A DNA stretch of 64,000 nt from Collinsella aerofaciens ATCC 25986 (GTDB taxonomy: Bacteria; Actinomycetota; Coriobacteriia; Coriobacteriales; Coriobacteriaceae), in assembly GCF_010509075.1 (NCBI RefSeq), contig NZ_CP048433.1, forward strand, positions 1,984,001 through 2,048,000. Direction: 5' to 3'. Positions 14,679 through 50,270 of this stretch are shown in pieces. The translations under genes were made by a program, and so were the position numbers. The first letter of the stretch is position 1. Each line of letters begins with the position of its first letter. Under the pieces are notes generated by a model. That model did not search any database, had not been told where the DNA came from, and saw only the letters and a list, made by a program, of their open reading frames with translations.

Positions 14679-15218
14679 ATGGATTTTGAGAATTCCCAAA
14701 CCAAGAAGAACCTCGAGACCGCTTTTGCCGGTGAGTCCCAGGCACACACCAAGTATCGCTACTACGCATCTAAGGCCAAGAAGGATGGCTACGTTCAGAT
14801 CTCGAATATCTTTGCCGAGACGGCGGGCAACGAGTCCGAGCACGCCAAGCTGTGGTTTAAGTATCTGCACGACGGCGCCGTTCCGGGCACTCTGGACAAC
14901 CTGCGCGACGCCGCCGCGGGCGAGAACTACGAGTGGACCACGATGTACGACGAGTTCGCCAAGACCGCCGAGGAGGAGGGCTTTGCCGAGATCGCCGAGA
15001 AGTTCCGTGGTGTCGCCGCCGTCGAGAAGGCCCACGAGGAGCGCTACAACAAACTCGTCGAGCGCATCGAGTCGGGCGAGGTGTTTGAGCGTGAGGGCGT
15101 GAAGGTATGGAAGTGCCTGAACTGCGGGCACCTGCACGTTGGTGCCGAGGCGCCTGAGGTGTGCCCGGTGTGTAACCACCCGAAGGCGTACTTTGAGGAG
15201 CAGGTGGTGAACTACTAG
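14679..15218 (+). CDS. Rubrerythrin
   Basis: A 179-residue two-domain non-heme iron protein. The diiron four-helix bundle (about 1-140) carries the family motifs [13 protein letters not shown] and [10 protein letters not shown]. The C-terminal rubredoxin-like domain has two CxxC pairs ([10 protein letters not shown] and CPVCNHP). It reduces hydrogen peroxide in the cytoplasm of anaerobes. ATG 14679 is chosen because GAAGGGAA lies 8 nt upstream and the conserved N-terminus begins there. It stands alone, followed by a large palindrome and a terminator. Confidence 0.95.
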
Positions 15219-15239: not shown

Positions 15240-15325
15240 GGGCCGGGAGGGCCGGACTACCTTCCCTCCTCGCTCACGGCTTCGCAGGGTCGCGTTGAGG
15301 GAAGGTAGTCCGGCCCTCCCGGCCC
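15240..15325. repeat. Constant-loop palindrome, family I copy A
   Basis: The left arm 15240-15268 and right arm 15297-15325 are perfect reverse complements over 29 bp. The 28-nt loop contains CTCGCTCACGGCTTCGCAGG and GTCGCG. The same loop, within a totally different stem, recurs at 16184-16269. The T-rich terminator at 15376 follows in both copies. Confidence 0.85.
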
Positions 15326-15375
15326 GCTTTGGGTCGTCGCGTGCTCGTTACAGAAAAGCTAATAAAAAAGTTTGT

Positions 15376-15405
15376 GTGCCGCCCCTTTTGGGGCGGCACG
15401 TTTTT
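15376..15405 (+). terminator. Terminator downstream of rubrerythrin
   Basis: Perfect stem GTGCCGCCCC/GGGGCGGCAC with TTTT loop, followed by GTTTTTG. An almost identical terminator lies at 16312, each about 50 nt beyond a family I palindrome. Confidence 0.9.
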
Positions 15406-15496
15406 GTATGGGGACTGGTTGGGACGGCGCCGTTCATGGGTGGGGTACACTGGGTAGCGACTTTTAGTTTATCTACTACCTGATGGGGTGTTTTTT

Positions 15497-16129
15497 ATGG
15501 GCAAGAAGTCTCGAGCTCGGGTTGCTGCGGCGGGAACTCGCAAGGATCCTGGTCATCGGGTTGCCGAGGGTAAAAAGGCCGATCGTGCTGAGAAGGACAA
15601 GAAAGTCGGCGCGCATGCTCATCCTGAGTGGGCGCCTCATTTGAATTCGGCTAGTGAGGATTTGACTGCCAAGTTGTTTACTCTGGTCGAGGTAATTTTG
15701 GGCGTGGTGCCCCTTGTGGTTATCGGTTTATTCTTGGCTTCGAAGGACGCCACGAGTGTCGATAAACTCACCGAGGTCTTTTCGCAGGACCCCTCGATGG
15801 TGGTCTCGTTTATTTCTGCGTGCTTGCAGCCGTTTGTGGCGTACATGCTGTATATGGTCTACCGCAAATACTGCGAGGGTGATGCGGGCTTTGCCGCCGG
15901 TAACCTGATCGGTCTTTTGTGCTCCGAGATCCTACTGCTCAATATCCCGGGCGTCATCGGTATGGGCATCTTGCTGTGGCGTGTTTGGCGCAACGTCGCC
16001 CCGCACTTTGAGAGCTGGTTGTTTGAACGCCGTGCAATGGGCGTGCTGGCAGACATCGCGGGCTCGCTCGTGATTCTAGCCTTGGCGTTTATGTGCGCCA
16101 CCGCCGCCCGAGGTCTCGCAGGCATGTAG
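15497..16129 (+). CDS. Unknown membrane protein with basic N-terminus
   Basis: A 210-residue protein. Residues 1-45 are strongly basic and polar (MGKKSRARVAAAG, KADRAEKDKKVG). The rest contains about four hydrophobic segments (LFTLVEVILGVVPLVVIGLF, a VAYMLYMVY segment, NLIGLLCSEILLLNIPGVIG and the C-terminal SLVILALAFMC). I use ATG 15497, 8 nt after a GGGG stretch; a GTG nine bases upstream is less likely. It is bracketed by two copies of the same palindrome-plus-terminator module, so it is transcribed alone. No family is recognised. Confidence 0.65.
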   Translation: MGKKSRARVAAAGTRKDPGHRVAEGKKADRAEKDKKVGAHAHPEWAPHLNSASEDLTAKLFTLVEVILGVVPLVVIGLFLASKDATSVDKLTEVFSQDPSMVVSFISACLQPFVAYMLYMVYRKYCEGDAGFAAGNLIGLLCSEILLLNIPGVIGMGILLWRVWRNVAPHFESWLFERRAMGVLADIAGSLVILALAFMCATAARGLAGM

Positions 16130-16183
16130 TCTGTCCTCACCGACCACGGAGCGCAGGGCAACTGCTGGTTTCACCGCTCCGGA

Positions 16184-16269
16184 CGTCAGACCCGCGGCGC
16201 ATCCCTTTCCCTCTCGCTCACGGCTTCGCAGAGTCACGCGAGGCAAAGGCATGCGCCGCGGGTCTGACG
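16184..16269. repeat. Constant-loop palindrome, family I copy B
   Basis: The outer arms 16184-16202 and 16251-16269 are perfect over 19 bp; pairing continues inward over 11 bp with two mismatches. The loop TCGCTCACGGCTTCGCAG plus AGTCACGC matches copy A at 15269-15296 apart from transitions, while the stem sequence is unrelated to copy A. Confidence 0.82.
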
Positions 16270-16311
16270 ACGCGGGCTTGCCAACGAGTTTTGGCTAATA
16301 GATTGGTTTGT

Positions 16312-16339
16312 GTGCCGCCCCTTTGGGGCGGCACTTTTT
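16312..16339 (+). terminator. Terminator downstream of the membrane protein gene
   Basis: Stem GTGCCGCCCC/GGGGCGGCAC, TTT loop and TTTTTG. It duplicates the terminator at 15376, including the preceding GCTAATA and GTTTGT words. Confidence 0.9.
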
Positions 16340-29579: not shown

Positions 29580-29644
29580 GTTGCGGTGGAATAGTTCCTG
29601 CTTGGGGGCTTGAAGCCTCTATTTAGGAACTATTTCACCGCAAC
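29580..29644 (+). repeat. 20-bp inverted repeat hairpin after SIS gene 1
   Basis: Arms GTTGCGGTGGAATAGTTCCT (29580-29599) and AGGAACTATTTCACCGCAAC (29625-29644) pair over 20 bp with one mismatch; the loop contains GGCTTGAAGCC. A second hairpin CCGCCC/GGGCGG follows at once. No T-run follows, so it may be an RNA-stability or processing element. Confidence 0.7.
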
Positions 29645-44336: not shown

Positions 44337-44798
44337 GCTGTAGCTGTGGTTGCTGCTGCGGCCGTTGCTGTGCTCGCGGCGTGACGAACGTGGATTTTCG
44401 GACACACGAGCGTGGATTTTCGGACGTTTACAAATCGAGCGTGGATAATCTCCCACTTTTGGCCGAGGAAGGGGCCAAAAACGGGAGATTTTCCACGCTC
44501 GATTTTTCTGTAGCTGTCATGCCGGCGGCCTCATTACACGTCGAGTGCATACGGGCCACGTTGCAAACAAGGTAGTTTTGAGCCACAGCATATTTTCTTT
44601 AAAAGAAATCGACGGCTTTAGAGGCGCCAAATTGTGGAGACAGGGACCTCTCGACAACTACCCTACCTGCAGATATAAGCCATCAGCCTAAAACGTCCAA
44701 AACCGTCAAGTATTTGGTCAGCGCCCGGACAGCATTTGGTCAGACTTCGCATGAAACCGTCTGGTACGTTTGCGCCGTTCCAAGAGTTGGGAGGCGAC
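44337..44798. other. Intergenic region with GAGCGTGGA repeats, before the AbiEi-like gene
   Basis: 462 bp without a gene. 44384-44505 holds the repeat cluster described separately. 44629-44648 is the inverted counterpart of 16346-16365. 44710-44745 holds two TTTGGTCAG words. A promoter for the 44799 gene must lie near the end but is not clear. Confidence 0.45.
44384..44505. repeat. GAGCGTGGA repeat cluster, locus a
   Basis: Two direct units, ACGAACGTGGATTTTCGGAC (44384) and ACGAGCGTGGATTTTCGGAC (44406), precede a hairpin with arms 44432-44454 and 44483-44505 (AAATCGAGCGTGGA then TAATCTCCC), 23 bp with one mismatch. An inner stem TTTTGGCC/GGCCAAAA nests within. A near copy lies at 45837-45904 on the other side of the AbiEi-like gene. 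Confidence 0.82.
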
Positions 44799-46605: not shown

Positions 46606-46649
46606 GCAAAACCACCACGAAGGTGCTGTCCCCTTTGTGGTGGTTTTGC
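46606..46649 (-). terminator. Terminator of the M16C protease gene
   Basis: 13-bp stem GCAAAACCACCAC/GTGGTGGTTTTGC with a loop containing CTGTCCCC. On the minus strand it follows the protease stop codon by about 10 nt. Its loop shares the CTGTCCC word with the ACCTRCCAAAA palindromes. Confidence 0.75.
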
Positions 46650-49849: not shown

Positions 49850-50018
49850 AAAATTGGACACTCGCCAAACGAGAGTGGATATTCGGACGGACGAGCGAGG
49901 ATTTCCGGATACCTATCGAACGAGAGTGGATATTTGGACGGAATTTGCCGCAAAAGCCCCAAAAACCGTCCAAATATCCACTCTCGATATCCGACCGTCC
50001 GAAAATCCTCGCTCGTCC
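49850..50018. repeat. GAGCGTGGA repeat cluster, locus c, with 53-bp arms
   Basis: Direct units at 49850 (ACGAGCGTGGAAAATTGGAC) and 49869 (ACGAGAGTGGATATTCGGAC) lead into a large hairpin. Left arm 49889-49941 and right arm 49966-50018 pair over 53 positions with the outer 21 (one mismatch) and inner 20 bp matching and a diverged middle. The loop is 24 nt. The sequence of the units relates it to loci a and b. Confidence 0.8.
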
Positions 50019-50089: not shown

Positions 50090-50270
50090 GAGAGATAACT
50101 GAGCAGCAAAGAGACAGGCAATCATGGTATTGTCTCAATACCAATTGTTCTACCAGCAAAAATATGTATAAATGAAGCAAATGGTAGACATTCCATCTCT
50201 CATCTATCTCTCTATCTCTAAGCCGAGAGATAGAGAGATAGATGAGAGATAATTTCGAGAGATAACTGAG
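50090..50270. repeat. GAGAGAT repeats and 25-bp perfect palindrome upstream of the AlbA_2 gene
   Basis: GAGAGATAACTGAG occurs at 50090-50103 and again at 50257-50270. Between them, arms 50195-50219 and 50226-50250 are perfect reverse complements over 25 bp, with a 6-nt loop, built entirely of ATCTCTC/GAGAGAT words. Base composition is far lower in GC than the surroundings. Confidence 0.85.
50145..50172 (+). promoter_or_regulatory. Candidate promoter of the AlbA_2 gene
   Basis: -35 TTGTTC (50145-50150), 16-bp spacer, -10 TATAAA (50167-50172). Transcription would start just before the 25-bp palindrome, placing that hairpin at the 5' end of the mRNA. Confidence 0.5.

Follow-up and report, generated by a model that had tools for sequence, protein, structure and literature searches.

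The window, a stretch of 64,000 nucleotides from Collinsella aerofaciens ATCC 25986, contains two long palindromes (elements A and B) which we regard, on balance, as probable members of a family of structured 3′-UTR RNA elements of Coriobacteriia. According to this reading the elements would be recognised via a conserved apex, and their stems would be rewritten by template switching. Covarying helices, a conserved core and a position behind stop codons, three properties expected of a structured 3′-UTR RNA, were all found.

Element A (15240..15325, plus strand) follows a rubrerythrin gene (open reading frame 14679..15218, plus strand, stop codon 15216-15218; Pfam PF02915 and PF21349), its host gene. 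It has a perfect outer stem of 29 bp (stem haplotype A1) and matches our covariance model R2 (see below) at 15259-15308 with 62 bits. Its conserved apex (15269..15294, plus strand) reads CGC / TCAC / GGCTT-CGCA-GGGTC / GCG, a CTC...GTCG internal loop enclosing a small hairpin. Further downstream on the same strand are GCTAATA (15358..15364), an instance of a second conserved motif, GCTRAW, and an intrinsic terminator (GTGTGCCGCCCC... with a T-run; 15374..15405, hairpin 15374-15401). The open reading frame 15497..16129 (plus strand, stop codon 16127-16129) encodes a membrane protein without Pfam match and is the host gene of element B (16184..16269, plus strand, haplotype B2; R2 match 16203-16252, 56.4 bits). 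The stem of B is 30 positions long, of which the outer 19 pair perfectly and two further in are mismatched, and it encloses the conserved apex at 16213..16238 (plus strand); GCTAATA (16294..16300) and an intrinsic terminator with T-run (16312..16339, hairpin 16312-16334) follow, again on the plus strand. Between the membrane-protein gene and B, at 16145..16159 (plus strand), persists the outer left-arm sequence of another hairpin type, B1, which is found in most other strains with the membrane gene and differs from the stem of B itself.

A and B have the apex CGC-TCAC-GGCTT-CGCA-GRGTC in common, with closing GCG in A and ACG in B. The 19-mer loop occurs twice in the window, with no further match at up to three mismatches there (shuffle mean 0.08, 100 shuffles), and RNA folding gave z-scores of -10.8 for A and -9.1 for B, no equally stable fold being seen among 200 shuffles. 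The order behind both stop codons is hairpin, spacer, GCTAATA and intrinsic terminator, and since this tail is common to both, A and B are not fully independent. There is no T-run directly after either long hairpin, as the letters themselves show; our terminator scanner ignores loops of more than 8 nt. The hallmarks of an intrinsic terminator are found instead in the separate downstream hairpins, which start 49 nt (A) and 43 nt (B) past the long ones. The palindrome positions, stem lengths and shared apex, the GCTAATA motif and terminator behind each copy, and the single bracketed membrane-protein gene had all been described in an earlier sequence-only reading of this DNA and were recovered here.

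When the exact loop was searched in a species-representative collection, it was found in 19 stretches, 13 from Collinsella with 18 copies and six from other bacteria. The earlier reading had proposed such a search with alignment of the flanks, and the flanks turned out to be complementary in all 18 Collinsella copies; one of these stretches (L010) is a C. aerofaciens contig carrying the same hairpin pair as the window. The matches in the six other bacteria were dismissed as chance, their flanks not being complementary. Allowing up to two mismatches, 22 of 43 genomes of the genus matched the loop pattern. Two of these (G013 and G029) lack the palindrome and were likewise set aside as chance matches, and the remaining 20 all have a hairpin at locus A, 14 of them with another at locus B, which makes 34 hairpins. 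The membrane-protein gene, with 94-100% identity at the protein level, is present in 14 of the 43 genomes, the same 14 that have hairpin B. Six genomes contain only one hairpin after rubrerythrin and lack both the membrane gene and B. In the three of these that were read (G002, G005 and G034) the lone hairpin is followed by the DNA that follows B elsewhere, and the membrane gene thus appears to be cargo that may be present or absent between the two unit copies. Locus A showed four or more stem types and locus B three, with outer and inner stem parts reshuffled between A and B types, both arms jointly. The B2 haplotype of the window was found in four of the 43 genomes, namely its own and three of the other 42. 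Four more distant Collinsella (L136, L138, L140 and L141) have no such hairpin downstream of rubrerythrin, and their intergenic DNA is too different to define a clean empty site.

The sequence-only reading dealt with the module at this one locus; a restriction to it is not supported, as we found ten family loci in the same genome. A hairpin scan over 464 kb (the window and 20 sampled stretches) detected a third hairpin with a similar apex, and a covariance model (R1) built from nine A/B hairpins and this third one matched further copies, by which the idea of a local two-copy curiosity was ruled out. A second model (R2), built from 23 alleles, gave the ten loci. By Pfam, the genes concerned encode rubrerythrin, transaldolase, a DUF47/PhoU-like protein, carB (MGS domain), prs, purE (AIRC), class II aldolase (fba), a cation ATPase and aconitase, the tenth being the membrane gene of B without match. 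The assignment of aconitase is based on a C-terminal domain match of 21.3 bits, just below the cut-off of 22.8. The fba and ATPase loci, which were not part of the model, scored 39.1 bits and a weak 28.9 bits, respectively. At E≤0.001, R2 matched 31 of 65 genomes of the taxonomic family. Weak matches were noted in G037, G050, G054, G055 and G060. The class-wide search at E≤1e-4 gave matches in 41 of 396 Coriobacteriia genomes, spread over 5 of 153 genera: 21 in the aerofaciens-like clade, six others of the same family and 14 in a second family. Five of these 14 second-family matches were inspected (L323-L327), and all five lie in sense orientation after the stop codon of an open frame. Conservation of the apex over two taxonomic families, together with covarying helices, speaks for a family of elements.

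For the analysis of position we used 119 of 120 R2 matches, all from the aerofaciens-like clade, after dropping a second copy of the own-genome purE element. A script assigned 101 of them to the 3′ ends of genes of eight types, where they start 22-45 nt past the stop codon; the exceptions are the B2 type of the window (73 nt) and the second match of a tandem (125 nt). In the purE region, 11 of the 119 lie antisense upstream of purE and one (G008) in sense. The other six were not assigned by the script; by eye, two are B, one belongs to aconitase and three lie in the carB-purE region, the latter being an inverted copy in G018 like that of G008 and copies beside other cargo in G007 and G023. Across the 18 loci at which orientation was judged, 16 were in sense (p=0.0013), comprising nine of ten own loci with purE as the exception and seven of eight outside the clade with gltX of G027 as the exception. 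GCTRAW occurs 40-73 nt downstream of the R2 match at eight of the ten own loci and was not found at the other two, compared with a mean of 1.4 and a maximum of 5 in 2000 dinucleotide shuffles and with two on the opposite strand. We also considered GCTRAW as a general feature of terminators and rejected this, since only 2 of 33 strong terminators in the 464 kb have it, namely those of A and B. Background counts were 2 of 33 at 235-270 nt upstream and 3 of 33 on the opposite strand, so that outside the family the motif is at background level.

An intergenic hotspot between two elements is the region from carB (element VI) to purE (element IV), at C1:1766005-1771516 of the same genome (L266) and also in L267, L268 and L269. 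In the own genome it contains sorbose/mannose-type PTS genes (IIB, IIC and IID) and a ParE/RelE-like gene with a weak ParE-type match. In G004, G005 and G008 the cargo encodes a protein of about 2150 residues, for which the G004 copy (L267) shows glycosyl hydrolase 31, F5/8 type C and FIVAR domains.

Other long palindromes were noted along the way. Further ones in the window lie at 44432-44505, 49921-49986, 29580-29644, 46606-46649 and 50195-50250, the last being a perfect 25 bp palindrome with CT-rich repeats; some of them are similar to further dispersed families of the sampled genome, e.g. AGTTGCGGTGAAATAGGGACT..., with constant stem and variable loop. A second constant-loop pair, about 250 bp apart, is located at L148:14060-14130 and L148:14289-14392 (about C1:624060-624392 of the same genome), with a loop of the kind TGCTCAAACATTCTCGCT...CTGCGAAACTGCGCG, opposite orientations and different outer stems. 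In other Collinsella species, near-perfect or perfect palindromes of 49-60 bp with loops of 3-6 nt were seen within 1.5 kb of rubrerythrin (L138:1241-1364, L139:2204-2307, L140:1133-1248 and L141:1192-1300); those of L139, L140 and L141 share or resemble one another in the inner stem and differ in the outer parts.

The stems covary strongly. Among 21 distinct A/B haplotypes 96.5% of the alignment cells are paired, compared with 77.9% in shuffles and at most 51% in slid alignments, and 26 of 39 pairs show changes on both sides. Pairing, double changes and covariation score were reached by none of 500 shuffles and the number of pair types by 32 of 500. In the R2 alignment 91.4% are paired and 13 of 18 pairs have double changes (as many in 2 of 500 shuffles); here the number of pair types was unexceptional and reached by 215 of 500 shuffles. 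The earlier description of the stems of A and B as unrelated to each other yet self-complementary therefore holds, and the stems are specific to locus and strain. Among the alleles compared, each long hairpin has 17-44 paired positions. At locus A the arms diverge by 17-19%, about 3.5-fold more than the rubrerythrin coding sequence with a mean of 4.9%, and the divergences of left and right arm are correlated with r=0.93 over 190 genome pairs.

Minimum-spanning trees of the alleles gave 44 double versus 67 single changes. The counts come from 47 tree edges, none with more than 14 differences, and pool A with B, the fba and ATPase loci being left out; three locus III alleles were labelled IV in this count (edge L202-L233), and the totals are independent of the label. 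Transversions account for 17 of 38 clean Watson-Crick to Watson-Crick double changes, and for these 17 there is no route through G-U. Among the single changes, 51 of 67 create or abolish a base pair and 16 leave the pairing intact, which argues that stem pairing is not tightly selected. A symmetric count in the inner stem found 9 G-U versus 12 A-C contexts and thus no preference for the plus strand. Over full stems the count was 24 versus 10, a ratio biased by a scoring in favour of G-U; in view of this bias and of the 9:12 in the inner stem, wobble asymmetry was dropped as proof that the plus strand is made into RNA.

Larger rearrangements of the hairpin were also found. The purE apex of G008 is the exact reverse complement of that of G017, with identical arms and flanks. 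The aconitase copy of G020 combines a left arm of one type with a right arm of another and is mispaired, and its rubrerythrin copy is missing the right arm; for these broken copies (L130 and L306) a real change and an assembly effect are both possible. Three types of complete hairpin are involved at fba, where in 8 of 20 genomes a complete hairpin of one type precedes a half unit of another, consisting of apex stem, right arm and tail; one of the halves is a mosaic. The orders of types are reciprocal (p+q and q+p, p+r and r+p), and in none of the eight do the two types coincide. Small mismatches aside, the left half fits the right half nearer to it, with the exception of G011, whose outer right arm is of another type. 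The DUF47 locus of G006 has a left-half remnant 5′ of the full unit.

Template switching is described by Monttinen and Loytynoja 2022 (PMC8794818) and Abraham and Hazkani-Covo 2021 (PMC8604942) as homogenising arms in one step with multi-base compensatory changes, and inversion of the spacer or loop is given as its second signature. Both were found here, namely homogenisation of the arms and inversion of the spacer between them (G008 versus G017 at purE). The two papers deal with rRNA genes and yeast coding sequence, whereas the Collinsella hairpins form a dispersed 3′-UTR family in which the stem is mostly replaced between strains and half units occur beside full ones. Because 51 of 67 single changes toggle pairing and G-U contexts show no consistent excess over A-C, repair by template switching is favoured, and as an explanation of stem turnover, template switching combined with recombination would seem preferable to a mobile element or to selection pair by pair. 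Of the selection on stem pairing that the sequence-only reading had suggested, the paired and covarying stems remain; pair-by-pair selection is not needed, template-switch repair providing the better fit. Its other suggestion was a mobile element with palindromes as insertion sites or products; the positions after stop codons and the mostly sense orientation speak against it.

Judged from the sequence comparisons, the element is probably an mRNA 3′-end element recognised via its apex. As the sequences show, the unit presents, from the stop codon onwards, the long hairpin, the CTC...GTCG apex loop around the small hairpin, a spacer and, at most own loci, GCTGA or GCTAA. It would be transcribed together with the preceding gene as 3′ UTR. 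Apex and GCUGA motif might be bound by a protein or an RNA, and the unit might act as a 3′-end tag that governs the stability or processing of metabolic mRNAs or their coordinated regulation, with the stem required as a rigid helix of free sequence. Template switching between the arms during DNA replication could produce the observed likeness of the arms and the occasional inversion of the apex, and the exchanged whole or half units could result from recombination between strains and neighbouring units. Several findings count against a 3′-UTR element, namely the purE copy, which lies antisense and occurs in inverted form in G008 and G018, the antisense gltX copy of G027, the broken copies of G020, the lack of wobble asymmetry in the inner stem, the single changes that mostly toggle pairing, the unexceptional number of pair types in the R2 alignment and the failure to find GCTRAW at two own loci. 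A more far-reaching and rather improbable version is a stem-switching RNA system, in which spare half-hairpins would serve as donors; a new arm would be recombined in and the opposite arm rewritten to match, giving the same mRNAs a strain-specific dsRNA stem with untouched apex. It is based on the pairing of unlike types at fba. If it were true, the stem could tag the individual strain, or it could be a surface for escape from whatever targets it.

That the hairpins might be a repeat at the DNA level, i.e. a selfish palindrome of REP or MITE type in intergenic DNA with the apex as site for a protein or transposase in DNA or single-stranded DNA, is the least improbable of the alternatives, though still unlikely. 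The copies are dispersed, inversion of the apex is tolerated, inner-stem wobbles show no strand preference and other long palindrome families exist in the genome. REP/BIME palindromes with their RAYT transposases are likewise intergenic, near 3′ ends and present in several copies, but their stem sequence is kept, whereas the Collinsella family varies the stem, keeps the apex, is tied to stop codons and has only about ten copies; a conserved multi-copy palindrome stem as in REP/RAYT was not found. Sense orientation at most loci, the narrow distance from stops, the same loci across species and the linked GCTRAW also speak against this explanation. A phage-borne element was rejected as well: when viral contigs were searched with three core patterns, two of the patterns matched exactly once each and the third not at all, and both matches (L347 and L348) lack the long stem and score 17.9 and 19.4 bits. 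Even less credit, very little indeed, is given to integron-like cassette boundaries, in which hairpins would be recombination sites that gain or lose genes. Such a view would account for the optional gene bracketed by A and B (14 genomes with gene and B, six with hairpin A alone), for the start-to-start spacing of elements VI and IV, which ranges from about 0.25 kb in G017 through about 5.5 kb in the own genome to 7-10 kb in G004, G005 and G008, and for chimeric and half-unit breakpoints in or near the apex. Integron attC sites are folded hairpins flanking cargo, with conserved boxes at the stem base and a variable tip. The Collinsella family is the reverse, with conserved tip and variable stem base; no core boxes were found there, the outer arms being unrelated between haplotypes, and ordinary homologous recombination between repeats suffices.

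The sense orientation at most loci behind genes could suggest unusual extended terminators with the long hairpin as main termination signal. A conserved apex is not known to be required for termination, and the missing T-run at A and B as well as the canonical terminators 49 and 43 nt further on make this quite improbable. Somewhat less so, but still improbable, are neutral palindromes whose arms are kept alike by template switching alone, with nothing selected save perhaps termination. The toggling single changes, the frequent double transversions and the paired arm changes agree with this, and template switching is known to act in this way (PMC8794818). It does not account for an apex internal loop kept across loci, genera and a second family, for the linked GCTRAW, for the separate terminators behind A and B or for element positions that are kept despite stem turnover. 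A structured 3′-UTR element with recognised apex and rewritten stem is the reading we prefer.

Comparison with Rfam (release 15, 4227 families) at gathering threshold yielded only two tRNAs in the window and no match at A or B, in line with the earlier remark that no named element of this kind is known. Matches at A and B with E≤10 were all sub-threshold and mostly to microRNA models. In the 20 family loci the only hit at gathering threshold was Corio-PBP RNA (RF02945, L326:436-509, 94.8 bits), about 1 kb from the family element of a second-family genome. Collinsella-1 RNA (RF01700), listed as a candidate structured RNA in a table of PMC2864571, is similar in being such a candidate from the same genus, but neither the window nor the 20 family loci match it; its one match in the own genome (C1:980022-980214) lies elsewhere, and it was discarded. 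Fremin and Bhatt 2021 (PMC8040213) also report palindromic candidate RNAs of gut bacteria, and overlap with their candidate list is possible. Literature outside that list contained no description of the element that we could find. It apparently represents a new family of candidate structured RNAs, and for its stem behaviour, too, we found no description.

The same loci in about 20 related genomes, with intermediates, chimeras, half units and an apex inversion, allow template switching to be tested directly against compensatory selection. This bears on the old question of how long RNA stems change their sequence without loss of pairing, and it cautions that strong covariation of a stem need not imply selection on each pair. 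For Collinsella, a common gut genus, the finding points to what appears to be an undescribed RNA family at the 3′ ends of core metabolic genes, and its second conserved motif makes a binding partner searchable.
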